NCBI GenBank assembly: GCA_003576915.1
Contig: QEVF01000007.1
Location: forward strand, 1-64,000
Direction of reading: 5' to 3'
Length of the DNA stretch: 64,000 nucleotides
DNA from: Planctomycetota bacterium
GTDB taxonomy: Bacteria; Planctomycetota; UBA8742; UBA2392
The notes under the pieces are model-generated. The model was not told the DNA's origin and did no database searches. It was given only the letters and a program-made list of their open reading frames with translations. Positions 13,316 through 51,992 of the stretch are shown here, one piece after another. Positions within the stretch are counted from its first letter, which is position 1. Each line of letters opens with the position of its first letter. Position numbers and translations under genes: made by a program.

Positions 13316-13333
13316 CCCTCAAGGAAGCAGCCC

Positions 13334-13648
13334 GTGAACAAATCGACCGCCGAATGGCCGTTTGCCGAGGGAACGCGCATTGAAGTGGGCGCCGAAGTCA
13401 AGAACATCGTCGCCGCCGATGCCGCGCTCGCCGAGTCGCTCAAGGACCTCGCCTGGGTAGACGTTGCGCGCCAGTTTGCTTGGTGCGGTTCGCGTGATGC
13501 GGCGGCCCGCAAGCTGCAGGACCTGGCGGCGGGCAGAATCAGCGCCGACAAGGCCAGGGAGCTCGTGGCCTTGGCCCATGAAGCGCGCATGAAGCGGGTG
13601 AAGAACAACAAGAGCGACCAGGACGTCACGGTGCAGCGCGAGAAGTAG
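13334..13648 (+). CDS. Small orphan protein between groEL1 and groES
   Basis: A 104-residue protein with GTG start at 13334 and an AAGGA Shine-Dalgarno at 13321-13325. It begins 18 bases after groEL1 and so probably shares its message. It is soluble, with alternating acidic and basic helices, a tryptophan pair around ARQFAWCGS and a basic C-terminus (ARMKRVKNNKSDQD). I recognise no family. A position inside a chaperonin operon suggests a co-factor or client-specific role, which is inference. Confidence 0.7.
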   Translation: MNKSTAEWPFAEGTRIEVGAEVKNIVAADAALAESLKDLAWVDVARQFAWCGSRDAAARKLQDLAAGRISADKARELVALAHEARMKRVKNNKSDQDVTVQREK

Positions 13649-13654
13649 CCGACA

Positions 13655-13731
13655 GGGCAACTCCAGGGTCCGGGTTCTGCACTCGGAGTTGCCCGCCAGG
13701 GACCAAGCAGCACGGACACTCAGAACCCGGA
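13655..13731 (+). promoter_or_regulatory. Interleaved inverted repeats with pseudoknot topology upstream of groES
   Basis: Two perfect inverted repeats are interlaced in the 113-base gap before groES: GGGCAACTCC (13655-13664) pairs with GGAGTTGCCC (13685-13694), and TCCGGGTTCTG (13669-13679) pairs with CAGAACCCGGA (13721-13731). The order arm1, arm2, arm1', arm2' is that of an H-type pseudoknot or of two overlapping operator-like palindromes. The groES ATG is 30 bases downstream. A cis-regulatory RNA or protein-binding site is inferred. Confidence 0.6.
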
Positions 13732-13761
13732 TGACAGAATACCGCTTTCGTGGAGAGACAC

Positions 13762-14055
13762 ATGCCAAGCAAGTTCCGCCCGCTGGACGACAACATCGTT
13801 CTGAAGCCCGCCGAGGCTGAAGAGAAGACTGCAGGCGGCATCGTGCTGCCCGACGCCGCCAAGGAAAAGCCCATCAAGGGCACCGTGGTGGCCGTGGGCC
13901 CCGGCCGCCTGCTGAAGTCCGGCAAGCGCCTGGAGCCCTCGGTGAAGGTGGGCGATGTTGTCCTGTTCGGCAAGTATTCCGGCAACGACGTCAAGATTGA
14001 CGGCGTCGAGCACAAGATCGTGCGCGAAGCCGAGCTGCTGGCGAAGGTGGAGTAG
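13762..14055 (+). CDS. groES: Co-chaperonin GroES
   Basis: A 97-residue protein with the Hsp10 signatures: FRPLDDNIVLKP near the N-terminus, the mobile-loop region EEKTAGGIVLPDAAKEKP, and GDVVLFGKYSGNDV. It caps the GroEL ring to close the folding chamber. The ATG at 13762 is preferred over the upstream GTG at 13750 because GGAGA lies at 13752-13756. It is flanked by two groEL genes and preceded by a structured intergenic region. Confidence 0.96.
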   Translation: MPSKFRPLDDNIVLKPAEAEEKTAGGIVLPDAAKEKPIKGTVVAVGPGRLLKSGKRLEPSVKVGDVVLFGKYSGNDVKIDGVEHKIVREAELLAKVE

Positions 14056-14166
14056 CCGGCGACGGCGTCTCGGGTCGCGTGGCCCGAGGCGGCACGGATT
14101 CCTGACGCGAGACACGCGGCGCGGCATAAGAGACGTTTCAGCGAGACACGAAACACGAGACCAACC

Positions 14167-15771
14167 ATGGCCAAACAAATCCTGTATGACCTGGACGCGC
14201 GCAAGAAGATCGCCAACGGCGTGCATCAGCTTGCTCGCGCCGTGAAGCAGACGCTGGGCCCCTCGGGCCGTCTTGCGCTCATGAACAAGAGCTTTGGCGG
14301 CCCGGCCGCCGTCAATGACGGCGTGACCGTGGCCAAGGAGATCGAGCTGGCCGATCCCTTCGAGAACATGGGCGCCAAGCTCGTGCAGGAAGTGGCGAGC
14401 AAAACCAACGATGAGGCCGGCGACGGCACCAGCACGGCCACCGTGATTGCCGAGGCCGTGATTGACGAAGGCCTGAAGATGCTCGCCACGGGCATCGGCC
14501 CCCAGGACCTCAAGCGCGGCATTGACAGGGCTGTTGAGGTGGCCGTTGCCTGCATCAAGGAGAATGCGAAGAAGATCAGGAACAACGACGAGCTGAAGGC
14601 TGTGGCCACGATCTCCGCCAACCAGGACAGCGAGATCGGCGGCCTGATGGCCGAGGCCATCGAAAAGGTCGGCGATGAAGGCGTGGTGACCGTGGAGGAG
14701 GGCAAGGGCCTGAAGACGGAGCTTGAGTACGTGGACGGGCTGAGCTTCGACAAGGGCTACATGAGCCCCTACTTCATCACCAACCCCAACGACCTGACCT
14801 GCGAATTCGAGAACCCGCTCATCCTTCTGTACGAGAAGAAGATTTCCAGCGTGCGCGAGTTGATTCCACTTCTGGAGAAGGTGGCACAGAGCGGCAAGCC
14901 GCTGCTGATCGTTTCGGAGGACATCGACGCCGAGGTCCTGGCCACGCTGGTGGTGAACCGCCTGCGCGGCACGCTTCAGGTGTGCGCGGTGAAGGCGCCC
15001 GGCTTTGGCGATCGCCGCAAGGCCATGCTGGATGACCTCGCCATTGTGACCGGCGGACAGCACATCAGTGAGGACATCGGGGTGACGCTCGAGAGCGTGA
15101 CAGTCGAGCAGCTCGGCCGCGCCAAGCGTGTCACCGTGGACAAGGACAACACCACGATTATCGAGGGTGGCGGAAAGAAGCGGGACATCGAGGCCCGTTG
15201 CGGTCAGTTGCGCACGCAGATCGAGCAGAGCCAGAGCCAGTACGACCGCGAGAAGCTCCAGGAGCGCCTGGCGAAGCTGGTCGGCGGCGTGGCCATGATC
15301 CGCGTCGGCGGACACACCGAGGCCGAAATGAAGGAGCGCAAGTTCAGGGTCGATGACGCCCTGCACGCCACGCGCGCGGCCAAGCAGGAGGGAATTGTGC
15401 CCGGCGGTGGCGTGACCTACCTGCGCGCGGCCCAGGCCATCCGCGACGCGAAGTTCTCCGGCGACGAGCGATTCGGCGCCCAGGTGCTGGCCGCGGCGCT
15501 GGAAGCTCCCACGCGCCAGATCGCGGAGAACTCGGGCCAGGACGGCAGGCTGGTCGTGGAGAGCATCAAGGAGAAGAAGGTCTTCAGCTTCGGCTACAAT
15601 GCCTTGAAGGGCGAGTACGGCGACATGCTGAAGATGGGCGTGATCGACCCGGCCAAGGTTGCCCGTTGCGCCATTCAGAACGCGGCTTCGGTGGCGGGCC
15701 TGATCCTGACGACGAACACGCTGGTGACGGATGTGAAGGACAAGAAGTCCGTTGCGGGCGCGGTGGCCTAG
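14167..15771 (+). CDS. groEL2: Chaperonin GroEL, copy 2
   Basis: A 534-residue Hsp60 chaperonin with TLGPSGR, the ATP-site motif [25 protein letters not shown] and [11 protein letters not shown]. It is clearly a paralogue of groEL1, with many local differences (for example E-I-E-L-A-D-P-F versus E-I-E-L-T-D-P-Y). The C-terminus ends SVAGAVA, so it too lacks a Gly-Met tail. Paired, diverged GroELs often specialise in different clients or assembly states. The direct repeat gcgagacacg (14107-14116 and 14141-14150) lies in its upstream gap. Confidence 0.96.
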
Positions 15772-40819: not shown

Positions 40820-41284
40820 ATGCCGCGGCGGTTTGCCAGTCTGCTGTGCCTTTGCCTGCTCCTGTGTGCCGGTTGCGTGGAGCGCCGCATATATGTCCGA
40901 AGTGACCCCCCCGGCGCTGACGTTTACATTGACGGCGAGCTTGTAGGACAGACCCGTCCCGCGCAGCACCCAGACGGCCCATTTTATGTCAATTTCTCCT
41001 ATTACGGCCGGCGCGAATGGACCCTGCGCAAGCCGGGGTATCGCACGGCCAGCGGGGAAATCGAACTGGTGGCGCCCTGGTACGAGTATCCGCCCATCGA
41101 CTTCTTTGCGGAGGTTCTGGCCCCCTGGAAGATTGTTGACAGGCACGAGATCAGCCAGAAGCTCGTGAAGGCGGAGCCCGGCGATGTTGAGGAATTACGC
41201 AGGCGGGCCGCCGACTTCCGCGAGGAAACGACAATGGCCGATCGCTTCGAGTTTGCGGCCAACAAGGGCAGCTGGCGGCGCTGA
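40820..41284 (+). CDS. PEGA-domain lipoprotein
   Basis: A 154-residue protein with a lipobox (LLLCAGC, Cys19). Residues about 23-80 form the PEGA beta-sandwich with the typical SDPPGADVYIDGELVGQT and WTLRKPGYRTASGE. A helical C-terminus follows. PEGA proteins are often envelope or S-layer associated. It is 9 bases from murD and probably cotranscribed, suggesting a cell-wall role. Confidence 0.85.
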   Translation: MPRRFASLLCLCLLLCAGCVERRIYVRSDPPGADVYIDGELVGQTRPAQHPDGPFYVNFSYYGRREWTLRKPGYRTASGEIELVAPWYEYPPIDFFAEVLAPWKIVDRHEISQKLVKAEPGDVEELRRRAADFREETTMADRFEFAANKGSWRR

Positions 41285-41293
41285 GCAAGCACG

Positions 41294-42880
41294 ATGGCAA
41301 ACCCCGAAATCGCAGAGAAGTTCGCACGCTTCAAGGGCAAGCGCGCGCTGGTGATGGGCCTTGGCCTGTGGCAGGGCGGCGTGGAGGCCGTGAAGTTTCT
41401 GCATCGGTGGGGGGCGAGCGAAATTCTTGTGACCGATTTACGCGACGAAACGACGCTCGCGCCCAGCCTCGAAGCCATCAAGCACATTCCCGTGACGCTG
41501 CGCCTGGGCGAACACCGTGAGAGCGACTTTGCCAACGCCCAGGTCGTGATCCACTCCCCCGCCGTGCGCCCTGACAACAAGTATCTCGCAGCAGCGCGTG
41601 AGGCGGGCGCGGAAGTGACGCAGGAGATGTCGCTCTTCATCGAGGCCTGCCCGGCAAGAACGGTCGGCATCACGGGCAGCAACGGCAAGACCACGACGAC
41701 CACTCTGGCCTACGAAATGCTGCGCTGGTCCTACGCGCCGGGACAGGCGACGCTCTGGACGCAGTGGGCTGATCCCATTGCGTCAAGCGAGGTGCGGAAT
41801 TGCGTGGAGCCTCCTGAGCAGCCGCCAAGCGTCTGGCTGGGGGGAAACCTTGGCACCCCGCTGATCAACCGGCTCGACGAGATCAGGCCCCGCGACATTG
41901 TGGTGTTGGAACTGAGCAGCTTCCAACTGATGGACTGGCACCGTATCGGCAAGTCCTGCGACTACTCCCTGATCACAAACATCACCCCCAATCACCTCGA
42001 CTGGCACAGGGACTTTTCAGAGTACTCCTGGGCGAAGCAGGCCATCTTCCGTTATGGGGCAGGGCAGGCGCTGCTCAACGCCGACGATCCCGAGACTGCC
42101 AGAGTCTTTGCCGGCGCGCCGGGGAACGTGAGCCTGTTTTCCCTCAAACTGCCCGCGGGGAGAACTCGTCTGGGTCAGCGCGACGGGCAGGTGGTCGCTT
42201 CTGGAATGGGCGGCCAGTTGACGTGCTTGGTCGAATCGCAGGAATCAGGACTCGCTGCCGCGCTGCTGCCGGTAGCTCGGCGCGCCGATCTGCGCCTGCC
42301 CGGGGATTTCAACTGGGCAAATGCCGTGGCGGCTGCCGCGCTGGTGAGCCGCATTGTGCGCGCTGATTCCCTGGAAAATGTCCCGAGGGCTTTGCGAACC
42401 TTTCGCGGGGTTGAGCACCGGCTGGAGCCCTGCGGCGAAATCCACGGCGCGCGGGTATTCAACGACAGCATCGCGACAGATCCCGCGGCTACGCTGGCCG
42501 CGCTGAGTGCGTTTGACAAAGGCATCCACCTGATTCTCGGCGGCGGCAGCAAGAACATCGACTATACGGAACTGGGCAGGCGTATTGCTGCGCATGGCCA
42601 CATCAGAGCTATCTACCTGCAGGGCGCAACCGCAACCGCGATCAAGGCGGCGATTGATGCCGCCTCCGCAGGGGCGAAACATCTGTCGCCCCTACATCTC
42701 TGCGCCACGTTTGATGAGGCCTGCGAGCTGGCTTTCCAGGCGCTTACCCCCGGCGATGTCCTGCTCATGTCGCCCGCCAGCACCAGCTTCTACGAATACG
42801 CGCCGGGAAAAAAGTTCGCCAACTTTGAGGAGCGCGGCAAGCACTTCAAGGCACTGGTGGCCCGATTCTCAAAGACCTAG
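41294..42880 (+). CDS. murD: UDP-N-acetylmuramoylalanine--D-glutamate ligase MurD
   Basis: A 528-residue Mur ligase. It shows the N-terminal UDP-binding Rossmann part (ALVMGLGLWQGGVEAVKFL), the ATP-binding GITGSNGKTTTT, the central NITPNHLDWH with His, and the C-terminal DSIATDPAATLAAL and LLMSPASTSFYEYAP. It adds D-Glu to UDP-MurNAc-L-Ala. It is longer than E. coli MurD (438), with an insertion around residues 150-180 that is Trp-rich (WTQWADPIASSEV). Peptidoglycan synthesis is thus retained. Confidence 0.93.
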   Translation: MANPEIAEKFARFKGKRALVMGLGLWQGGVEAVKFLHRWGASEILVTDLRDETTLAPSLEAIKHIPVTLRLGEHRESDFANAQVVIHSPAVRPDNKYLAAAREAGAEVTQEMSLFIEACPARTVGITGSNGKTTTTTLAYEMLRWSYAPGQATLWTQWADPIASSEVRNCVEPPEQPPSVWLGGNLGTPLINRLDEIRPRDIVVLELSSFQLMDWHRIGKSCDYSLITNITPNHLDWHRDFSEYSWAKQAIFRYGAGQALLNADDPETARVFAGAPGNVSLFSLKLPAGRTRLGQRDGQVVASGMGGQLTCLVESQESGLAAALLPVARRADLRLPGDFNWANAVAAAALVSRIVRADSLENVPRALRTFRGVEHRLEPCGEIHGARVFNDSIATDPAATLAALSAFDKGIHLILGGGSKNIDYTELGRRIAAHGHIRAIYLQGATATAIKAAIDAASAGAKHLSPLHLCATFDEACELAFQALTPGDVLLMSPASTSFYEYAPGKKFANFEERGKHFKALVARFSKT

Positions 42881-43055: not shown

Positions 43056-43664
43056 CTACTTCGCCTTTTCTTCATCCGTGCCCATTTCGCCCAGCTCTCG
43101 GGCGATTTCCTTGTCCAGTTCCTCGCGCGTCTTCTTTTTGCGCTCGGTCGAGGAGATGCCGATCATCTGGTCGATTTCTTCGTCACTTACGAGTTGCTCG
43201 CCGCTGGCGGTTTCGCCGCTGAACAACGTGTCCTTGCTCATGTCCAGGAACAAATCCATGCGCTGGCTCATGGTCTCCGCCTGCATCATGGCATGCTCGA
43301 AGTTGCGCTGCGTTTTCTCAAGGTCAGTGTTCTTGTAGACGTCGTTGATGCTCTTGGCCACGACGCCCATGCTCTCGGCGAACGTGGCGTAGCTCTCGGC
43401 CTGATTCTTCATCTGGAATGCCGCTTCGATGGTCAGGAGCTGCCGCTCAATGGCGCGGCGCTGCGTGGCTGTGGCCTTGAGTGACTTGCGTATAAACGCG
43501 AGCTGATCCATGGCGCCCATGCGCTGGGCTCGCCTTGCCTTTTCAAGCCACTCCTCCTCGTTGCGGCCCAAATCGGTGAGTTGGCGCTTGATGCGCTGGA
43601 TGCCCTTCTTGATTTCCATGTCGCGCTGCAGGCGACGTTCTTCTTTGGATTTGAATATCCCCAT
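43056..43664 (-). CDS. ESCRT-III/Snf7-like protein 1 (Vps2/CHMP2-like)
   Basis: A 202-residue all-helical protein beginning MGIFKSKEERR. The basic helical hairpin (about 8-48 and 52-90) is followed by a third helix (92-112, YATFAESMGVVAKSINDVY), a fourth (117-147, EKTQRNFEHAMMQAETMSQR) and an acidic tail (158-202) with VSDEEIDQMIG. This order (basic N-terminal core, ...M-x-x-V-x-K..., ...E-x-x-M-x-x-A-E-x-M..., acidic C-terminal MIM-like tail) is that of ESCRT-III proteins such as Vps2/CHMP2. The same operon encodes an MIT-Vps4-like ATPase. The assignment is by architecture, without alignment statistics. Confidence 0.7.
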   Translation of the reverse strand: MGIFKSKEERRLQRDMEIKKGIQRIKRQLTDLGRNEEEWLEKARRAQRMGAMDQLAFIRKSLKATATQRRAIERQLLTIEAAFQMKNQAESYATFAESMGVVAKSINDVYKNTDLEKTQRNFEHAMMQAETMSQRMDLFLDMSKDTLFSGETASGEQLVSDEEIDQMIGISSTERKKKTREELDKEIARELGEMGTDEEKAK

Positions 43665-43794
43665 GGCGATGCACCTCGGACGCTCATTATTGCAGGAAGC
43701 CGGCCGCTACTGTCATCGGATTCCGGATTTCGGTGGGTGGCCAATGCCGGGCCGCGGCGTCTGCGCGAGCCCATGGCCTGTGGCCACTGTCGGT

Positions 43795-44247
43795 TCAACC
43801 CAAACAGCCCTTGAAAATCAGGCCCTGGAACATCAGCAGCAGGATCAGCACGGCAGCCAGGAGCATGCAGCCGCGCGCGTTGGTGCCGGTTTGGTTGGGG
43901 ATGGGGCCGGTCACAGTGAAATTGGCGTGATGGGCGGCAAAGTCGCGCTCGGTGATGAGGTCCGCCAGGGCGTTTTCCTGGGAGCAGCCGGGACACTTTG
44001 CGGGTGGCAGCAGGTCTTCGGGCCAATGATAGCCGCAGTTCGAGCAAACGTTCTGCGTGTCGCGGTCGAAGACTTCGTCGTCGAGGTCCTCGACCATCAT
44101 CTCGGTGGAAATGAACGCCGAACAGCCCAGACAGCGGAACTGCTTGAGCTTGGGGTGGGGGATCTCGCTGTAGTCCTTGGCGCAGTAGGGGCAGCGCGTG
44201 AGGTGCTTCTTGGCGAGGCGAATCAGTTGGCGCTCATGATCTACCAT
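43795..44247 (-). CDS. Double zinc-ribbon tail-anchored protein of the ESCRT-like operon
   Basis: A 150-residue protein. There are two zinc ribbons, CPYC(19-22)/CLGC(39-42) and CSNC(68-71)/CPGC(85-88), separated by an acidic linker (MVEDLDDEVFDRD). The C-terminus has a hydrophobic segment (127-146, CMLLAAVLILLLMFQGLIFK) suggesting tail anchoring with the ribbons in the cytoplasm. Its start overlaps the end of the two-TM gene by 14 bases. It probably recruits or senses partners at the membrane. Confidence 0.65.
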   Translation of the reverse strand: MVDHERQLIRLAKKHLTRCPYCAKDYSEIPHPKLKQFRCLGCSAFISTEMMVEDLDDEVFDRDTQNVCSNCGYHWPEDLLPPAKCPGCSQENALADLITERDFAAHHANFTVTGPIPNQTGTNARGCMLLAAVLILLLMFQGLIFKGCLG

Positions 44248-44590
44248 GGGGGGATTGTCGATTGTCGATTGACGATTGTCGATTGGGCGGACTCAAGCGC
44301 CGGAGCTTTCTCCTAAGAAAAAACTCGTAAATCCGCGCTGAGGCCCAAGCAACCATCAGTGACCAGAAGGTGATGCCCGCGACAACCATGAACAGTGATA
44401 GCCACCCAGATTGCTCCACGGTGGTGCGGTGAATGAACGCCTTAGGATCAAGCACGAAAACAATGCCGACATATGCCAACTGCAATAGTGCTGCCACCAC
44501 CAGCGAACCGAGCCATACACGGCCTATGCCCCAAGGTTGGTAGCGCGATGCGCCCCGACCAAATGGCTGAAGGGGGTCCAATTTTGGCAT
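44234..44590 (-). CDS. Two-TM membrane protein of the ESCRT-like operon
   Basis: A 118-residue protein with start MPKLDPLQPF at 44590. Two membrane helices (VWLGSLVVAALLQLAYVGIVFVL and WLSLFMVVAGITFWSLMVAW) flank a short loop, and the C-terminus is basic. The last dozen residues (SSIDNRQS) are encoded by a 7-base tandem repeat (44253-44285), so the end of the protein depends on repeat number. No family is recognised. It overlaps the next gene. Confidence 0.6.
   Translation of the reverse strand: MPKLDPLQPFGRGASRYQPWGIGRVWLGSLVVAALLQLAYVGIVFVLDPKAFIHRTTVEQSGWLSLFMVVAGITFWSLMVAWASARIYEFFLRRKLRRLSPPNRQSSIDNRQSPHGRS
44253..44285. repeat. Tandem heptanucleotide repeat (gattgtc)
   Basis: About 4.7 copies of gattgtc (one unit gattgac) lie inside the 3' end of the two-TM gene, directly upstream of the ATG of the zinc-ribbon gene (44247). 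A change of one unit shifts the reading frame. Confidence 0.85.
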
Positions 44591-44618
44591 TGTTCGCGAC
44601 TCAATCAAAAGCCACACA

Positions 44619-45866
44619 TCAATCCTGATCCTGGCGCCAATCGAGGTAGCGCGCGGCTTCTTCGGGCGACGTCACGGGGCGGATGCCTTCGGCAGCGACC
44701 TGGAAATCCTTGAGTGTCAGCGGCCGCACTTTCACCTGATAGTTCTTGGCTTGCGCCAGGCCTTTGTCGATCACGTCGGGCAAGTCGGCATTGAGCTCGC
44801 TGATCATCGTGCTGGTGACTTGCTTTACAAGGCGCTCGATTTCGCGGCCGGAATAACCCTCGGTCAGTTTGACAAGCTCGGGAAGCTCGCACTCCAGAAC
44901 GAAACCTTTTTTCTCGGTCTGGATCTTGAGGATCGCTTCGCGTGTGACCGGGTCCGGCAGCGGAATCAGAATCTGCTTCTCGAAGCGTGAGAGCACGGCA
45001 TTGTCGATTTCCCATGGTCGGTTTGTAGCTGCGATGGTGAGCACGAAGATGTCGGTGCGGCCCTTCTCCGTCAGGCCATCCAGTTCACTCAGGATTGTGC
45101 TCAGGATTCTGCGCTCGGCGCCGCTTTGCTCGTCAGAGCCGCGCGAGGCCGTGAGCGATTCGAACTCGTCCAGAAAGACCACGCTGGGGCTGTTGTCGCG
45201 CGCGGTGCCGTAGATTTCGGAAATGATCTTTGAGCTTTCGCCGAAGTATTTGCTCATCACGCCGCTGACCTTGACGTTGAAAAACAACGCCTGCCCATCG
45301 CTGGTTACCTTCAGGGCGTTGCTGGTGGCTGCGGCGATCAGCGTTTTGCCCGTGCCCGGCGGCCCGTAGAACATGATGTTGCGAAACGTGGCAATCTTGA
45401 CGCCCTTGGGCGGAGTCGCGAGCGAAAGGCCCAACGTGTATTTGATATCGCGCTTGGTTTGCTCCAGGCCGCCAATGTCGTCCCAGGTCACGGGCGAGAC
45501 GTGAATCAGCGAATTGACGGCGTTGGACAACTCGCTCTTGTTGCCTGCCTGCTCGGTCTGCCGGGAGTCGATGTCCTCATCGTTGCTCGGAGGTGCCGGC
45601 AGCTTCGCCGCCTTGGCGCCCGCGGCCTGTTCGTTGTGAAGCTCGCGCAGGCGGCCCGCAAACTCGCGATACTCGATGGCCTTGCGCTTGCGCTGATACT
45701 CCTGGGCGCGGCTGTTGGCGTACTCTGCAAACTTGAGCATCAGCTTGCTGGCCTGATCGAAGTGCTGCGCGGCCTGCTCCGAATCGCCGGCCTTCCAGGC
45801 CATCTTGGCCTTGTGCAGCGAATCGTCGCAGGCGGACTTCAGTTTGGGGCCGAGATCTAGGCTCAT
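44619..45866 (-). CDS. Vps4-like AAA ATPase with N-terminal MIT-like domain
   Basis: A 415-residue protein. Residues about 5-78 form an MIT-like three-helix bundle (SLHKAKMAWKAGDSEQAAQHF...). Then follow a linker and a single AAA domain: WDDIGGLEQTKRDI (127-140), Walker A GPPGTGKT (168-175), pore loop VMSKYFGES, Walker B VVFLDEFESL (229-238), and sensor 1 with arginine finger TIAATNRPWEIDNAVLSRFEK (R294). IPLPDP and the Vps4-type C-terminal helices complete it. The MIT-AAA order, and RFEK followed by IPLPD, are features of Vps4/katanin-type ATPases, which disassemble ESCRT-III polymers. ATG 45866 is used; an upstream TTG (45890) is possible. It sits among three ESCRT-III-like genes. Confidence 0.85.
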   Translation of the reverse strand: MSLDLGPKLKSACDDSLHKAKMAWKAGDSEQAAQHFDQASKLMLKFAEYANSRAQEYQRKRKAIEYREFAGRLRELHNEQAAGAKAAKLPAPPSNDEDIDSRQTEQAGNKSELSNAVNSLIHVSPVTWDDIGGLEQTKRDIKYTLGLSLATPPKGVKIATFRNIMFYGPPGTGKTLIAAATSNALKVTSDGQALFFNVKVSGVMSKYFGESSKIISEIYGTARDNSPSVVFLDEFESLTASRGSDEQSGAERRILSTILSELDGLTEKGRTDIFVLTIAATNRPWEIDNAVLSRFEKQILIPLPDPVTREAILKIQTEKKGFVLECELPELVKLTEGYSGREIERLVKQVTSTMISELNADLPDVIDKGLAQAKNYQVKVRPLTLKDFQVAAEGIRPVTSPEEAARYLDWRQDQD

Positions 45867-45931
45867 AGTGGTCAGCTGCCAATCGCACAAACCGACACGA
45901 AGTCGCAGGCGACGAATCCTGTAGTGGGCGG

Positions 45932-47023
45932 CTAGTTCGCTGTCTTGCCGTCCGAGCTTGTCTTTCTCAACCGGCTGCTGAAGGTCAGCAACCTGCTGGC
46001 CTTGAGCTCGCTGGCCGCGACTTCTTCGTCGCTTCGACCTTCAGCGGCCGTCCCCAGCAGTTCCATGGCCGCCTGTTTGAAATGCTCCGCGGCTCCCTTG
46101 AAGTTGCCCTCGCCGTATGCGCGACGGGCCAGTTCCATGGCTCCCTGGCTGAGGTGTCCGGGGGCCTTTCGCAGCGCCTGCGCGATCTCACGGGCAAAGA
46201 CGCTGCTCAAGAGCCGCTCGATCTCAATGCCCGGGTCGGGTGCGTGGCCCGCCGAGAAATCATCGCTGATGGCCTCAAACGTTTTTGCCATGACCTCGAA
46301 ATCACAGCGACCCAGGGCGCGCGAAAGCTCCACCACCCGCTCAGGCCTCAGGCCAGTCTGGCCTTCAATGATGCGCTGCAGGCTCGGTGCCGTCTTCTGT
46401 TCGCTGGGGTCGGCCAGGGCGGGCGCGCTGCGGCCCGAGTCCTCCGCTTTGGGGGCAACATCCGCAAACTCCAACTCCAGCGCTTCGCGCACATCAGCCC
46501 TGGAGCCGACGAGCCGCAGGCCCGGCTTGCTGTCCGATGGGGGCGCCGCGGGGGCCGGCTTGTCCTCCACTGTTTCCTTGCGGGCGGGCGGCTGCGTCGG
46601 CGCCGAAGTCAGATTTTCGGCTTTGCGGCTGTGCCTGGCGGGGGCGGCTTCCTTGGGCGTGGCTGCCTCCAGGTCGGCGTTGATGACGGCTAGTTCGCTC
46701 TGGCTTTCCGTGCGCAGCTTGAGCGCCTTGCTTTCGTCGGGCTTGCCGTCCTGGGTCAGTTCCCTCAACTGGCGACACAGGTCGAGGAGCTTGGCCGCCT
46801 TGCGCTTGATCACCTGGGCCTGAGCCTGGGCTTGAACGTGGGCCGCGTACTTCTTGAGCGTGCTGGCGGCGCGCTCGAAGTGTGACGCGGCGGTGTCGTA
46901 TTCGCCGTCATTCCAGGCTTCGGTGCCGGCCTGCTCCTCCTGTTCGGCGATGCGCTTGAACTCGCGCGCCGTCTGCTCGCTGATGCCGAGTTGTGTGTTG
47001 GATGAGTGGGGGGCCTTGGCCAT
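45932..47023 (-). CDS. Two-MIT-domain adaptor-like protein
   Basis: A 363-residue protein (start MAKAPHSSNT at 47023). Residues about 19-90 (AEQEEQAGTEAWNDGEYDTA...) form one MIT-like three-helix unit and about 290-355 (LSQGAMELARRAYGEGNFKG...) a second. Both share the A-x-x-x-G-x-(Y/F)-x-x-A-x-x-H-F pattern with the N-terminus of the Vps4-like ATPase next door. The middle is a Pro/Ala/Lys-rich linker with one helical patch (about 212-260). MIT domains bind the acidic tails of ESCRT-III proteins, so this could be an adaptor in the manner of Vta1/LIP5. Confidence 0.65.
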   Translation of the reverse strand: MAKAPHSSNTQLGISEQTAREFKRIAEQEEQAGTEAWNDGEYDTAASHFERAASTLKKYAAHVQAQAQAQVIKRKAAKLLDLCRQLRELTQDGKPDESKALKLRTESQSELAVINADLEAATPKEAAPARHSRKAENLTSAPTQPPARKETVEDKPAPAAPPSDSKPGLRLVGSRADVREALELEFADVAPKAEDSGRSAPALADPSEQKTAPSLQRIIEGQTGLRPERVVELSRALGRCDFEVMAKTFEAISDDFSAGHAPDPGIEIERLLSSVFAREIAQALRKAPGHLSQGAMELARRAYGEGNFKGAAEHFKQAAMELLGTAAEGRSDEEVAASELKASRLLTFSSRLRKTSSDGKTAN

Positions 47024-47146
47024 GGTTCGAGTTTCGCTGGTCGTCGTGCCTGGACTGTAATCCGTAACGTGTCGCTTTCCAGTCCTGAAGACTGAGGCCG
47101 CCTCGCGAGACGGCAACGGCGCGCCACGCGGAAGCCTGAAGCCCCT

Positions 47147-47758
47147 CTAAACCGCTTTCTCGTCGGACTCCAGCTTGCGCTTGAGTTCCTGTTCGCTCTT
47201 CAGCGCTTCGTCGAAGCTGCCGGAACTCTCGGCTTCCACGATGCTGTCGATTTCCTCGAGGAACTTCTTCTTCTCGGGGTCGTCGTCCGTCATGGCCTCT
47301 TCCACCTCGAGCCCCAGAGCATCGAGGGTGGCGTTGAGTTCATCGATGTATCCTTCTTCGTCGATCTGGGCCAGTGCGAGCTTTGCATCAAGTCCGCTGT
47401 TGCGTACGCGCGTGATCAGCTTCTGGATGCTGTTCTTGTCCTTCCGTTTCTCAAGGCGCTCAAGGCCTCGCGTGTACTTCTTCAGCGCGATGCCCTCAAG
47501 GTTGGCGATCTTGGCGGCGCGTTTGTTGAAGGCGAAGTCATGCTTGAGGTCCTTGAGTTCTTCCCAGAGGTAATCGACCTCGATCTGGTTGCCCTCTTTG
47601 CGGGCGTTCTTGATCTGATCGATGATGGAACTCTGGCGCGTGGAGAGCTTGCGCACCTCCATGAAATATTTGCGGCGCTCACGCTCGACCTCGCGCAGCT
47701 TCACCTTCAGCAGGCGCGAGTCGATTTTCTGTCCGAAAAGCAGTTGGAAAAAGCCCAT
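47147..47758 (-). CDS. ESCRT-III/Snf7-like protein 2
   Basis: A 203-residue protein starting MGFFQLLFGQK (ATG 47758; GTG 47764 is alternative), an amphipathic N-terminus like that of CHMP proteins (CHMP2A begins MDLLFG). It then has a basic helical hairpin (about 15-105: LREVERERRKYFMEVRKL, IIDQIKNARKEGNQIEVDYL), further helices to 145 and an acidic C-tail (150-200). Helical pattern and charge distribution (basic first half, acidic second half) match ESCRT-III. It is a paralogue of the other two coiled-coil genes of this operon in plan rather than in close sequence. Confidence 0.65.
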   Translation of the reverse strand: MGFFQLLFGQKIDSRLLKVKLREVERERRKYFMEVRKLSTRQSSIIDQIKNARKEGNQIEVDYLWEELKDLKHDFAFNKRAAKIANLEGIALKKYTRGLERLEKRKDKNSIQKLITRVRNSGLDAKLALAQIDEEGYIDELNATLDALGLEVEEAMTDDDPEKKKFLEEIDSIVEAESSGSFDEALKSEQELKRKLESDEKAV

Positions 47759-47859
47759 GTGCACCGTCCACTTTGCCTGACTTGCCTGAAGGTATCAGAT
47801 GCCGGGTATCAGGTTTCAGGAATCAGGATCGCTTGCCTCACCTGTTACCCGGTACCTAC

Positions 47860-48594
47860 TCACTCCGTTTGCGGCCTTTCCTTGACCTCGGCAGCCTTCA
47901 AATCTTTCTCGCGCTGCGCCATTTCGGATTCGAGCTTGGCCATCTCGGCTTCCACCTCCGCCTCACTCAACTCCCTTTCGCGCGGCTTCTTCGCCGTTTC
48001 AACCCCCTCATTCACGTTGGGGGCCCGCTGGGGCTTCTCTTCAGCGGGCCTGGCGCCGAGAAGTTCACGCTCCAGCTTTTTGAGGTCTTCCTTCTCGGCC
48101 AGCGAAAGGATGCCGGTGTCGGTGCCCTTCATGGCGTTGGCGGTCTCGATGGACTCCATGTACTTGTCTTTGCGTTCGTCAAAATCCATGGCCAGACGTT
48201 CGACCATCTGGTTTTCGATGCCGCGCAGGTTCATGGCCGCGATGGTCTGGTGCTTGTCGACCATGCTCTGCAGCACTTCGATATTCTTGTTGTAGACGTG
48301 GATGCGATGTTTGAGCGATTCAATGCGCGTGCGGTTGCGCTTGACGCTGAGCAGTACGACTTCCTTTTCCTGTTCGCCGATCTTGCCGGCCTTCAGCGCG
48401 TCGGCCTGGGCCTTCTCCTGAAGTTCAAGGCGCTGGAGTTCCTGCATGACCTTGCGCAGCTCGACCTCATTGCGGGTGATCAGTTCATCGTAGCGGTCGA
48501 GTTCTTCACGCATGGCCGCTTTGTCCACGGGCGCTTCTGCGTCAGGGTCACCGCCGCGCCCGAACAACCTGCGAAAGAAGTCGCCGAGTCCCAC
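47860..48594 (-). CDS. ESCRT-III/Snf7-like protein 3
   Basis: A 244-residue protein starting MGLGDFFRRLFGRGGDP, an amphipathic Gly-rich N-terminus resembling that of CHMP4/Snf7 (SVFGKLFGAGG). A long helical hairpin (about 26-115) and further helices (116-180) follow. Then comes a Pro/Glu-rich linker and an acidic C-terminal helix (ELSEAEVEAEMAKLESEMAQRE), where Vps4/MIT-interacting motifs usually lie. The GTG start directly follows the TAA of the upstream gene (TAAGTG), so translation is coupled. Confidence 0.65.
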   Translation of the reverse strand: MGLGDFFRRLFGRGGDPDAEAPVDKAAMREELDRYDELITRNEVELRKVMQELQRLELQEKAQADALKAGKIGEQEKEVVLLSVKRNRTRIESLKHRIHVYNKNIEVLQSMVDKHQTIAAMNLRGIENQMVERLAMDFDERKDKYMESIETANAMKGTDTGILSLAEKEDLKKLERELLGARPAEEKPQRAPNVNEGVETAKKPRERELSEAEVEAEMAKLESEMAQREKDLKAAEVKERPQTE

Positions 48595-49395
48595 TTACGC
48601 TCCCACGCTTGAAAACCTGTTCCGCTGGATAATGAGATTTCCTTCGACGTCCTTCACGTCCAATCCCGGGGTTCGTCCCGCATAAAGCATGGCGCGGTCC
48701 GTCACCAGTTCGCCGCTGACAGCCGCCCGGCGTGCCAGTTCCTCCAGCAGCAGGAACCCGCCGGGCTCTTTCAATTCCTGAGCGGACTGGAGGGCGGCAT
48801 CGACGCGGGCGGCCTTCTGTTCATGGGGTTCGGGGTCAAACAGGTTTTCAAACAGGGCCGGAAGAATCACCCCGTCACGCGGCGCCGATACGCGCCAGCC
48901 CGGGTTGAGGAATTCTACAAACCCGGCGCGCCAGTTTGTGCCTCCCGAAAGTGAGCGCAAAGCCTCATCACTGGGGCCGAGCTGAGGACTGCTCGAAAGC
49001 CCGGCGACGCCAAGGATGAAGTAAATGTCGGGCCTCATCGTGGTCAGAGCCCAGTTCGCCGTCTGCTCCACGGCGCGGGGAGTGAAGCGGCCAGGTTCAG
49101 ATGGCGCCCACGCGAAGTCCAGCACCACACAGACCTTGAGCGTAGTTGCGCCCAGCAGCGGCTTATGCAGGAGGCCCAGGGCCTCTCGACGCGTGAACGC
49201 GCTTTGGCCGCCGGGACTCAAATCCCCCGCAATGTGGCTGCGCCGCGAAACGCGGTTGGCATCGAAGTCGTAGAGCGAGCCATCCAGCGGGTGCGGAAGC
49301 ATGCGTTGCCGGATCAGGCGCGACTCCAGGCCCGAGAACAGGCCCTGCATCGCTGTGAGGGCGGAAGCCCTCGTCGCTGTCGCCTCGTCCGCCAT
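48595..49395 (-). CDS. Orphan first gene of the ESCRT-like operon
   Basis: A 266-residue soluble protein starting MADEATATRA at 49395. The much longer frame upstream is antisense to the ABC transporter and is rejected. It has an alpha/beta central part (TTLKVCVVLDFAWAPSEP, IYFILGVAGLSSSPQ) and a C-terminal part (FLLLEELARRAAVSGELV, then LDVKDVEGNLIIQRN) that has the helix-helix-strand look of a winged helix. ESCRT-II subunits have winged helices, but I have no sequence evidence linking the two. It heads the operon, so it may be the recruiting or nucleating factor. Confidence 0.6.
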   Translation of the reverse strand: MADEATATRASALTAMQGLFSGLESRLIRQRMLPHPLDGSLYDFDANRVSRRSHIAGDLSPGGQSAFTRREALGLLHKPLLGATTLKVCVVLDFAWAPSEPGRFTPRAVEQTANWALTTMRPDIYFILGVAGLSSSPQLGPSDEALRSLSGGTNWRAGFVEFLNPGWRVSAPRDGVILPALFENLFDPEPHEQKAARVDAALQSAQELKEPGGFLLLEELARRAAVSGELVTDRAMLYAGRTPGLDVKDVEGNLIIQRNRFSSVGA

Positions 49396-49554: not shown

Positions 49555-51384
49555 TTGAGCAACAACATTCATGAAGAAGAAGTCCTGGGAAAAGCCTACG
49601 ACGCCCGCTTGATCAAGCGCCTGCTGCCCTATGCGAGGCGCCACATGGGGCTGGTGACCGGCGGCGCGGCCTGCATGCTGCTGGCCGGCGGCGTCGCCCT
49701 CCTGCTGCCCCTGATTATTCGTGAAATCATCAATGGGCCTTTCACGGTGCTGTCCCTCGAAGGTCCAGACGATGCGGCCCTCGACGCACTTGGCTGGCTG
49801 GCGCTGGGCTATTTTGTGCTTGTCGCGGTCCAGTTCGTGGCGCAGTTCGGCAACGGCTACTGGTTTCAGGCCTTGGGCGCCCGCGCCGTCTTCGACCTCC
49901 GCAAGGATGTTTACACCCACATCCAGCGCCAGCCCCTGAAGTTCTTCGACCACAATCCGGTGGGACGCCTCGTGACGCGCGTGACGAGCGACGTCGAGGC
50001 GGTGGGTGAAGTGTTTGCCTCGGGTCTGGTGCAGCTTGTGGGCGATCTGCTCGTCGTGCTGGGCGCGCTGGCCATGATGTTCTTCATCTCGCCGGGTCTG
50101 ACCAGCATCGTGCTGGGGGCCATGGTGGCCGTGGGGGTGATTTCCTGGGTGTTCAAGGGCCGCGCCCGCAACGCTTTTCGCGATATGCGCCTCAAGCTCG
50201 CCAGCGTGAACTCGTTTCTCAACGAGACCATCCAGGGTTGGCGCGTGACCCGCATTTTCAGCACGGAAAAGCGGCAGGCGCGGCGCTTTGACGAGCGTTC
50301 CAGCGACTACCGCGAGGCCACCTATCGCACGGTTTTCAATTTCGCGATGTTCTTTCCCGCGGTCGAAATCGCTACGACGCTGGCCCTGGCCGCGCTGGTC
50401 TGGTACGGCTCGCGCCAGATCCTCGCGCACGAACTCGACTTCGGCAGCTTCTTCGCGTTTTTCAGCTACACGCAGATGATGTTCAACCCGATTCGCGAAA
50501 TGAGCGAGAAGTACAATGTGCTGCAAAGCGCCATGGCCAGCGCCGAAAGGCTGTTTGGCATTCTCGACACACCCAACTCCATCACCAGCCCGGCCGCGCC
50601 CCGCAACCCGGTCATCGCGGGCGAGATCGAGTTCAGAAATGTCTGGTTTGCCTATGAGGGCGAAAACTGGGTGCTCAAGGACGTCAGTTTCAAGGTTCAG
50701 GCTGGCACTTCGCTTGCACTGGTGGGGGCCACAGGCAGCGGCAAGAGCACCATCATCTCGCTGGTGATGCGCTTCTATGACGTGCAGAAAGGCCAGGTGC
50801 TGCTGGATGGCATCGACGTGCGCGAGATGTCGCTTGAGCACCTGCGCCGCGCCTTTGCGCTGGTCCTGCAGGACGTGTTCCTGTTCGCCGGCAACGTGCT
50901 GGACAACATTCGCCTGGGCGAGGCGAGCATCTCCCGCGAGCGGGTGCAGAAGGCCGCCGAAGTGGTGCACGCGGACAGCTTTATTCGCTCCCTGGACAAG
51001 GGCCTCGACGCCGAAGTGGCCGAGCGCGGCGTGACCTTCAGCGCGGGGCAGAGGCAGCTTCTGGCATTTGCGCGGGCGCTTGCTTTTGACCCCCGCATCC
51101 TGCTGCTGGATGAAGCCACAAGCAACATTGACAGCGAAACCGAAGCCCTGATTCAGGACGCCCTGGCGCGCCTGATGAAGGGGCGCACGGCCATTGCCGT
51201 GGCCCATCGCCTCAGCACCATAACGGCCAGCGATCAGATTCTCGTGCTGCACCACGGCGAAATCGTGGAGCGAGGCAGCCACGGCGAGCTGCTGGCACTG
51301 GGTGGTCGCTACAGCAAGCTCTACCGGCTGCAGTTCGGTGCGGAGGAAGCTGCATCGGCCTCCGCGCCCCGGGAGGCCGTATGA
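49555..51384 (+). CDS. ABC transporter, MsbA-type exporter
   Basis: A 609-residue half-transporter (TTG start). Six membrane helices in the first 320 residues are followed by a nucleotide-binding domain with Walker A GATGSGKST, a Q-loop region (LQDVFLF), the signature FSAGQRQLLAFARAL, Walker B ILLLDEATSNID and the H-loop AHRLST. It resembles MsbA-like lipid or drug exporters acting as homodimers. It is divergent from the ESCRT-like operon. A functional link through membrane remodelling is speculative. Confidence 0.93.
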   Translation: MSNNIHEEEVLGKAYDARLIKRLLPYARRHMGLVTGGAACMLLAGGVALLLPLIIREIINGPFTVLSLEGPDDAALDALGWLALGYFVLVAVQFVAQFGNGYWFQALGARAVFDLRKDVYTHIQRQPLKFFDHNPVGRLVTRVTSDVEAVGEVFASGLVQLVGDLLVVLGALAMMFFISPGLTSIVLGAMVAVGVISWVFKGRARNAFRDMRLKLASVNSFLNETIQGWRVTRIFSTEKRQARRFDERSSDYREATYRTVFNFAMFFPAVEIATTLALAALVWYGSRQILAHELDFGSFFAFFSYTQMMFNPIREMSEKYNVLQSAMASAERLFGILDTPNSITSPAAPRNPVIAGEIEFRNVWFAYEGENWVLKDVSFKVQAGTSLALVGATGSGKSTIISLVMRFYDVQKGQVLLDGIDVREMSLEHLRRAFALVLQDVFLFAGNVLDNIRLGEASISRERVQKAAEVVHADSFIRSLDKGLDAEVAERGVTFSAGQRQLLAFARALAFDPRILLLDEATSNIDSETEALIQDALARLMKGRTAIAVAHRLSTITASDQILVLHHGEIVERGSHGELLALGGRYSKLYRLQFGAEEAASASAPREAV

Positions 51385-51992
51385 AGCGCCACGGCGAAGC
51401 AGAGACTCACCTTCGCCGCGTGGACCGGCGCCTGGCCCGTATTATCGACGAAATTGGCCCCTGCCGGTTGCTGCCGCGTCCCCCGCTGGGCAGCACCTTT
51501 GCGGCGTTGGCGGAATCCATCGCCTATCAGCAGCTCACGGGCAAGGCAGCCGCGACGATCTTCGGGCGGTTCAAGAAGCGTGTGGGCCGCCTGACGCCGC
51601 GCAAAGTTCTGGCGCTTCCCTTACCTGAGTTGCGCGCCTGCGGCCTGAGCCAGGCCAAGGCGATGGCCATGCAGGACCTGGCGGCCAAGGCGCTGGAGGG
51701 CGTGGTGCCTCCACCGCGCAAGCTGGCAAGCCTCGATGACGAAGAAATCGTATCGCGCCTGACGCAGGTGCGGGGCATCGGGCGCTGGACGGTAGAGATG
51801 CTGCTGATCTTCGGGTTGGGCAGGCCGGATGTGTTGCCGCTTTCGGACTACGGCGTGCGCAAGGGCTTTACGCGCCTGTGGGGCCGGCGCGAACTCGTCA
51901 AGCCCGGGGACCTGGCGGAGGCCGGGCAGGTCTGGGCGCCGTGGCGCAGCGTGGCCAGCTGGTATCTCTGGCGCGCGTGCGAGATGGATTGA
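51381..51992 (+). CDS. DNA-3-methyladenine glycosylase II (AlkA-like)
   Basis: A 203-residue HhH-GPD base-excision glycosylase. It has FAALAESIAYQQLTGKAA, the helix-hairpin-helix LTQVRGIGRWTVEMLL and the region LPLSDYGVRKG, whose Asp is the catalytic residue of the family. It overlaps the ABC gene by 4 bases (ATGA). It lacks the N-terminal TBP-like domain of E. coli AlkA, as in the short forms. Confidence 0.92.
   Translation: MKRHGEAETHLRRVDRRLARIIDEIGPCRLLPRPPLGSTFAALAESIAYQQLTGKAAATIFGRFKKRVGRLTPRKVLALPLPELRACGLSQAKAMAMQDLAAKALEGVVPPPRKLASLDDEEIVSRLTQVRGIGRWTVEMLLIFGLGRPDVLPLSDYGVRKGFTRLWGRRELVKPGDLAEAGQVWAPWRSVASWYLWRACEMD

Follow-up and report, generated by a model that had tools for sequence, protein, structure and literature searches.

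An operon of predicted ESCRT-III and Vps4-like proteins in Planctomycetota

Systems that pair ESCRT-III (endosomal sorting complex required for transport III) proteins with a Vps4 ATPase are placed only in archaea and eukaryotes in a recent survey (PMC10936438). According to this survey, the archaeal Main clade combines Vps4 and ESCRT-III with a winged-helix protein (arCOG09748) and a protein of arCOG08177, often together with a Ser/Thr kinase and a phosphatase (Makarova et al. 2024, PMC10936438). The ESCRT-III superfamily also includes PspA and Vipp1 (PMC8281802). We analysed here a stretch of 64,000 nucleotides (hereafter the window; positions 1 to 64,000 of contig QEVF01000007.1, assembly GCA_003576915.1) from a Planctomycetota bacterium, in which the original prediction, made from the letters alone, had proposed a Vps4 plus Snf7-like operon at 43056..49395. 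This proved largely right, and neither of the refuting conditions that the prediction had named went against it: one gene product (A) is of the Snf7/CHMP type by sequence and another (D) goes with archaeal Vps4-like ATPases. We hold with good confidence that the operon comprises an ESCRT-III protein (A), a Vps4-like ATPase (D) and two proteins that are likely ESCRT-III-like (F and G), predicted to form membrane filaments disassembled by the ATPase. In the open-access literature, no bacterial Vps4 plus ESCRT-III locus was found in the titles or abstract openings listed; preprints or subscription papers may exist. PspA and Vipp1 are not known to have a dedicated Vps4.

The eight open reading frames (ORFs) are all present on the minus strand, in the order H, G, F, E, D, C, B, A from the upstream end (Table 1). 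Family alignments were made from the window and from other loci (A, 19 of 23; F, 16 of 19; G, 13 of 17; H, 10 of 14; D, 20 of 28; N-terminal domain of D, 19 loci); near-copies, partials, wrongly joined or wrongly begun ORFs, a distant AAA match labelled Geobacter (L028) and an A gene interrupted by a stop codon (L020) were left out. The A protein matched the Pfam Snf7 model with an E-value of 1.3e-5 (25.3 bits, hmmscan), as did 17 of the 20 members of its family at E up to 0.1, and two relatives (P0080 with 27.4 bits and P0087 with 28.2 bits) attained the curated cut-off. Relatives of A at E 1e-3 numbered 1501; among the 120 listed, 44 carried a precomputed PF03357 label and one was named Snf7 family protein by NCBI. 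A was the sole Snf7 match in its own genome, and Sulfolobus was the only one of 14 control genomes to give a match, below the cut-off. The A family profile, when compared with PDB sequences, gave six matches at E up to 1, of which five were CHMP chains (four CHMP3, E 2.3e-4 to 0.007, and CHMP2A, E 0.03) and the last FtsA (E 0.86), a likeness to the eukaryotic ESCRT-III/Vps4 system. Judged by its sequence, A is an ESCRT-III family protein.

All 21 members of the D family matched the AAA model. Vps4_C was matched by 19 of them with E no higher than 0.1 (1e-7 at best), but weakly and below the cut-off by the window D itself (E 0.014). The 21 members show no variation at the positions of Walker A, Walker B, sensor-1 and the arginine finger, and almost none at the pore-loop aromatic. 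The D of locus L001 is 98% identical to that of the window. Against PDB, the D profile aligned with VPS4B in a single stretch (8-355, 224.8 bits) that takes in both the MIT domain and the AAA core, whereas among the five alignments printed no single Cdc48/p97 domain exceeded 196.5 bits; by summed score, two-domain Cdc48/p97 chains top the ranking. A tree was built from 30 AAA domains: the window and 11 of 26 planctomycete loci, two Chloroflexota-type loci (L026 and L072), six of 120 listed proteins (three named Anaerolineae by NCBI, three labelled Chloroflexi by similarity), four archaeal plasmid proteins, two second-AAA proteins (see below) and four Cdc48 domains. A branch supported at 100/99 set the proteins of planctomycetes, of the Chloroflexota type and of archaea apart from Cdc48 D1/D2, and the two bacterial groups joined at 93/94; long branches were flagged by the tool where the second-AAA pair meets the rest. 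The AAA domain, as the original prediction had expected, does not fall with unrelated AAA families: it is grouped with archaeal Vps4-like ATPases, apart from Cdc48, and Vps4_C is present in the family. On its profiles, motifs and tree position, D is assigned as a Vps4-like ATPase.

A few candidates were set aside and some side observations made. A family call from the D model was dropped on account of poor Foldseek superposition (root-mean-square deviation of 15.7-23.5 among the 50 rows listed), and VIA-align on the same model (residues 229-414) left archaeal Vps4 tied with several other AAA families. A second AAA ATPase gene lies directly after A at two deep loci (L017 11916-13031 and L025 6445-7593). 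Its product was rejected as a member of the Vps4 group since it sits on the Cdc48 side, with long branches; that of L025 matched Vps4_C at 1.1e-4. Viral contigs gave at least 23 loci, the best match among those listed being 30% identical over residues 125-348.

The distribution was determined in 294 genomes of the phylum. A was found in 53, D in 44 (E up to 1e-60), F in 40 and G in 36. A and D occurred together in 42 genomes (A only in 11, D only in 2, neither in 239; Fisher p 4e-38); in 39 of the 42 they were on one contig and one strand, with A downstream and 5-4837 bases from D, and on different contigs in the other three. ESCRT genes in the neighbourhood are an alternative criterion for Vps4 in the archaeal survey (PMC10936438), and in the phylum A stands beside D on the same strand in those 39 genomes. 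A or D was present in every genome with F (40/40) or with G (36/36). All four genes were found in 28 genomes. In 27 of these they share a contig and a strand and follow each other as G-F-D-A; in the remaining one they are spread over several contigs. The co-occurrence that the prediction had offered as a check was thus borne out, with gene order kept. Six genomes (G001, G008, G039, G071, G177 and G264) had A and F on one contig and no D match at E 1e-60, and possibly hold an ESCRT-III-like pair without Vps4. An F homologue (P0170, 71% identity) was also seen in a metagenome-assembled genome labelled Nitrospira, possibly misbinned.

These counts bear on whether the operon is a misassembly or an archaeal contamination of a metagenome bin, which we find barely conceivable. 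The window genome is an assembly of 59 contigs, 87% complete, but the operon is present in independent assemblies, on contigs of 2.45 Mb and 0.88 Mb, and in the 28 four-gene genomes. A bacterial Mur-ligase gene adjoins the operon, here and in near relatives, and this neighbour together with contigs of up to 2.45 Mb indicates that the host is bacterial.

The F protein was assessed from its AlphaFold2 model, which is confident, with a predicted local distance difference test score (pLDDT) of 86. The predicted helices (3-7, 14-54, 58-104, 108-120, 123-128, 134-146, 161-178 and 182-197) begin with a short one, continue with an extended hairpin (14-54/58-104) and end in a series of short helices, a modelled arrangement that fits the ESCRT-III layout. 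When the model was run through Foldseek against 350,542 chains, the top 13 matches were all of the ESCRT-III superfamily, with probabilities from 0.44 to 0.99; they include CdvB of Sulfolobus islandicus, CdvB2 filaments, CHMP3, CHMP2A and, at rank 9, Vipp1. The first four are CdvB and CdvB2 chains, and the pairing of ESCRT-III with Vps4 is also that of crenarchaeal Cdv; unlike in Cdv, the NCBIfam CdvC model scored far below its cut-off on the ATPase (160 of 650 bits). Profile comparisons gave a modest similarity between A and F (E 1.2e-4, 55%) and none between A and G or F and G, and nothing convincing was retrieved from PDB with the F, G and H profiles. The G profile resembled four proteins, taken as one set, whose genes lie close to Vps4-like ones (85.6%, E 5.6e-6, 171 columns); to this set F was less firmly linked (52%, E 1.4e-4, 197 columns); reversed controls reached at most 2.3%. 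This set consists of two Chloroflexota proteins, one encoded directly before the ATPase of L026 and one two genes before that of a Chlorohelix plasmid, and of the two proteins preceding the kinase-ATPase pair on a Thermococcus plasmid. F and G are likely ESCRT-III-like subunits, G being a putative one: its connection with F comes chiefly from gene order and, in addition, from its profile similarity to this set. The three small ESCRT-III proteins of the original prediction are therefore of unequal standing: A holds by sequence (Snf7, CHMP3/CHMP2A), F by fold ranking, and G by gene order and profile only.

Another candidate is an envelope-stress operon of the PspA/Vipp1 type that has gained an ATPase. 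It would share the superfamily, and Vipp1 does figure among the Foldseek matches of F. SPFH (Band_7) genes were moreover found downstream of the operon at two deeper loci (L017 15323-17281, E 5.8e-4; L024 7299-9206, E 1.8e-5), and SPFH-like genes lie near some PspA genes, as well as at archaeal Meth_adaptin loci, in the survey (PMC10936438). A further gene (L025 7682-8173) is SPFH-like by clustering only, and a member of the same cluster encoded upstream of D at L022 gave no Band_7 match. PspA itself was matched in 88 of the 294 genomes (75 over the cut-off), among them 27 of the 53 with A, but always on another contig; PspA_IM30 had no match in the window's own genome and did not appear among the family matches listed for the three small proteins (A, F and G) or for their relatives. 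As the A profile, in addition, retrieves CHMP proteins and not PspA, we consider a PspA/Vipp1-type operon very improbable.

The N-terminus of D is predicted to fold into three helices (5-24, 28-46 and 52-80). Its profile matched Vps4 MIT chains of PDB at E 0.007-0.033, with nearly the whole of the D domain aligned. It also resembled the N-termini of Vps4-like ATPases from archaea (88%, E 2.8e-6) and of those of the Chloroflexota type (99%, E 7e-21); the reversed controls stayed under 1%. We call this domain MIT-like, with a weak resemblance to the MIT domain of Vps4. In E, the N-terminal and C-terminal regions both matched the D-family N-terminus (hhalign E 2.3e-9 and 7.7e-7, respectively) and the middle region did not (E 0.48); the probability of the reversed controls did not exceed 0.7%. 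Of the loci examined, the window, L001 and L002 alone yielded an E gene. The MIT-AAA ATPase of Vps4 type and the double-MIT protein that had been proposed for D and E are hence upheld in part: the AAA/Vps4 portion of D and the duplication of its N-terminal domain in E stand, the latter in close relatives only, and the MIT identity is weak for both.

Counterparts outside the phylum were sought by running D through tblastn against 72,556 plasmid records, four of which matched with at least 80% query coverage: Candidatus Chlorohelix allophototropha (43% identity), Thermococcus peptonophilus (35%), Halomicrobium urmianum (35%) and Halarchaeum (33%). The Thermococcus locus (L073 3112-10487) encodes a protein of 607 amino acids, two of about 200, a Ser/Thr kinase, the Vps4-like ATPase, a PP2C phosphatase and a protein of 188 amino acids. 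The latter is a homologue of A (61.5 bits; hhalign 98.25%, E 2.7e-14) that matched Snf7 at E 4.2e-4. On the Chlorohelix plasmid (L072 1-2455), two hypothetical proteins of 210 and 194 amino acids directly precede the Vps4-like ATPase, which is followed by a kinase with WD40 repeats. At the Anaerolineales locus L026, a coiled-coil gene comes directly before the ATPase gene, with a kinase gene upstream and, by eye, a second kinase-like gene downstream. A weak match of A to ParB (E 2e-3) in the plasmid search was taken as noise. By sequence, Chloroflexota have ATPases related to that of the planctomycete system. Candidatus Chlorohelix allophototropha is available in a non-axenic culture, and a relative of the ATPase is also present in Levilinea saccharolytica.

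Of the systems compared, the archaeal Main clade has the nearest layout. The planctomycete operon likewise has a Vps4-like ATPase, a Snf7 protein and further coiled-coil proteins, and the Thermococcus locus, which we infer from its layout to be of the Main clade, has an A homologue together with a Vps4-like ATPase, a kinase and PP2C. In contrast to the Main clade, the planctomycete system is in bacteria, E and B are additional, the winged-helix partner is putative, and no Ser/Thr kinase or PP2C was noticed at the near planctomycete loci. On account of this nearest layout, we read the operon as an ESCRT system of archaeal type that is established in Planctomycetota and whose ATPase has relatives in Chloroflexota.

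A number of results weigh against this reading. The Snf7 score of the window A is just below the curated Pfam cut-off (25.3 versus 27.3 bits), and Snf7 was unmatched in the 17 F and 14 G family members. A scan with the MIM1 tail consensus found this pattern absent from the window A, present in 4 of the 23 A proteins at loci and in none of the 120 listed homologues. D was missing from 11 of the 53 genomes with A. In the Foldseek ranking of F, the top 13 matches had E-values of 0.1-0.65 and a TM-score by query of 0.25-0.42, and VIA-align on F mixed ESCRT-III with unrelated hairpins. The links of G and F with the four-protein set weakened when subsets of it were used (to 46% and 3% for G, below 1% for F), and the pairs of proteins that precede the haloarchaeal ATPases matched none of the A, F and G profiles. 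As for D, the AAA core was poorly predicted (mean pLDDT 70), the tree was built without eukaryotic and crenarchaeal Vps4, and the NCBIfam CDC48 model scored above CdvC (176.6 versus 160.2 bits), both being far under their cut-offs. A designed TPR protein outranked Vps4 MIT in the PDB comparison of the N-terminal domain (E 0.004), Pfam MIT was matched by 1 of 20 such domains (E 0.0041) against 7 of 20 for TPR_2, no Pfam MIT match was found in the whole genome, and the E domains did not match the archaeal ATPase N-termini. With Pfam MIT essentially unmatched in D and the consensus MIM1 tail missing from the window A, the system differs in these respects from eukaryotic ESCRT.

Some of these points would suit a generic AAA unfoldase with coiled-coil adaptors, serving for instance in protein quality control or anti-phage defence and ESCRT-like by convergence: the weak, TPR-like character of the MIT assignment, the generic structural matches that coiled coils yield, and the scores of D on the CDC48, PAN and anti-phage IteA models of NCBIfam, all far below their cut-offs (nothing was above cut-off in the 10 proteins tried). 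Such an origin is nevertheless quite improbable in view of the Snf7 match of A with its clean control, the CHMP chains that make up five of its six PDB matches, Vps4_C in the D family, the Foldseek ranking of F, and an archaeal locus where an A homologue accompanies a Vps4-like ATPase. We retain the reading of the operon as an ESCRT-III protein and a Vps4-like ATPase with two likely ESCRT-III-like partners.

Table 1. Genes of the planctomycete operon and its flanks in the window.
Gene	Description	Coordinates	Strand	Basis
A	Snf7/ESCRT-III protein by sequence, 202 aa (amino acids)	43056..43664	-	Pfam Snf7, CHMP3/CHMP2A profile matches
B	Zinc-ribbon protein, C-terminal hydrophobic segment (possible anchor), 150 aa	43795..44247	-	weak Pfam
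C	ORF with two hydrophobic segments, 127 aa; doubtful member	44234..44617	-	sequence, tblastn
D	Vps4-like AAA ATPase, MIT-like N-terminal three-helix domain (predicted), 415 aa	44619..45866	-	AAA, Vps4_C, tree
E	Two copies of D-type N-terminal domain and long linker, 363 aa	45932..47023	-	hhalign
F	Likely ESCRT-III-like helical protein, 203 aa	47147..47758	-	AlphaFold2 model, Foldseek
G	Charged helical protein, putative third ESCRT-III-like subunit, 244 aa	47860..48594	-	profile, co-occurrence
H	266 aa, C-terminal winged-helix-like segment (by eye)	48595..49395	-	homologues at L017, L022, L025
	PEGA-domain gene	40820-41284	+	
	Mur-ligase (MurD-like) gene	41294-42880	+	
	ABC transporter	49555-51384	+	
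	HhH-GPD DNA glycosylase	51381-51992	+	

The tight packing of the eight genes, with overlaps or gaps under about 130 bases, agreed with the ORF coordinates: successive intervals are 0 (H-G), 101 (G-F), 123 (F-E), 65 (E-D) and 1 (D-C) bases, then an overlap of 14 (C/B) and the largest gap, 130 (B-A). The start of D was corrected to 45866 (MSLDLG...) and that of E, from the ORF and its relatives, to 47023 (MAKAPH...). Outside the window, a neighbouring Mur ligase was seen at the near loci alone. The lipoprotein-like PEGA-domain gene adjoins it, and relatives of this gene lie beside the operon at several near loci.

Less uniform results were obtained for the remaining genes. B had been described as a zinc-ribbon tail-anchored protein; its hydrophobic C-terminal segment can be read from the sequence, the zinc-ribbon Pfam matches are weak and below cut-off, and relatives were found at near loci only (L001-L003, L030 and L037). 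C, proposed as a two-transmembrane member of the operon, was not conserved: tblastn at E 1e-3 retrieved just a small part of its C-terminus in L001 and L002, the remaining 26 loci gave no match, and in L001 D and B are separated by 142 bases. We consider C unlikely to belong to the system. At near relatives the place of the window B and C is occupied by a WaaP/Kdo-family kinase gene, which lies between D and A at L005 (11246-12064, Pfam) and in a cluster of 12 further loci; at L003 a trypsin-like protease gene (13323-15401) stands between D and B/A. H is no orphan, as had been thought, but a member of a wider family, the near H family matching homologues at the deeper loci L017, L022 and L025 (95.5%, E 1.5e-8, with no row shared). 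The deeper H family matched part of the Thermococcus protein of 607 amino acids (62%, E 7.5e-5), a value that fell to 12.7% (E 0.0023) minus one row, and the near H family did not match it; for these two reasons the link of H to the archaeal locus is tentative. One H-like protein (L025 1004-2599) has an N-terminal MerR DNA-binding domain, which suggests a regulatory link.

Planctomycetes are known for unusual internal membranes. In the mechanism that we propose, A, F and G would assemble into filaments along the inner side of the cytoplasmic membrane by means of their long helical hairpins; a D hexamer would be recruited to their C-terminal tails by its MIT-like N-domain and would thread subunits through its pore, and this disassembly of the filament would bend, cut or repair membranes. 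In this genus, the two linker-joined MIT-like domains of E would connect the filament to the ATPase. A role in regulation or recruitment would fall to H, and B would serve as an anchor in the membrane.

A more general role can be considered, in which the operon is the Cdv-like cell-division machine of FtsZ-less bacteria, its filaments constricting and cutting the division neck. FtsZ was above the curated cut-off in none of the 294 genomes (10 had weak FtsZ-like matches, and 13 of the 14 control genomes matched), no tubulin/FtsZ match was found in the window's own genome, 87% complete, and archaeal Cdv employs the same kinds of proteins, according to the survey (PMC10936438). Yet A is present in only 53 of the 294 genomes, so that most of the FtsZ-less genomes sampled manage without it, which makes a general replacement of FtsZ unlikely. 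Related loci are, moreover, carried by plasmids, some of them adjacent to kinase genes, and those of Thermococcus and Halarchaeum, with their kinase and PP2C genes, look accessory, which further weakens a general division role; the flanking Mur ligase is on the opposite strand and, as said, a neighbour at near loci only. We thus regard the division machine as unlikely. Vesicle formation, sorting or repair fits better than division, and the job of the system is, in our analysis, most likely local membrane scission or repair.

The proposal can be carried further, to a composite bacterial ESCRT-III/Vps4 scission machine with three filament proteins, of common descent with euryarchaeal ESCRT, that would cut membranes (for vesicles or division) in FtsZ-less Planctomycetota; in this form it is tentative, and we put it at somewhat under even chances. 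If it were true, ESCRT would not be confined to archaea and eukaryotes. A bacterial counterpart reopens the question of the origin of ESCRT, by transfer or from a deeper origin, and could provide an experimentally accessible bacterial ESCRT system. To conclude, the finding bears on how membranes are shaped and cut in planctomycetes that lack FtsZ.

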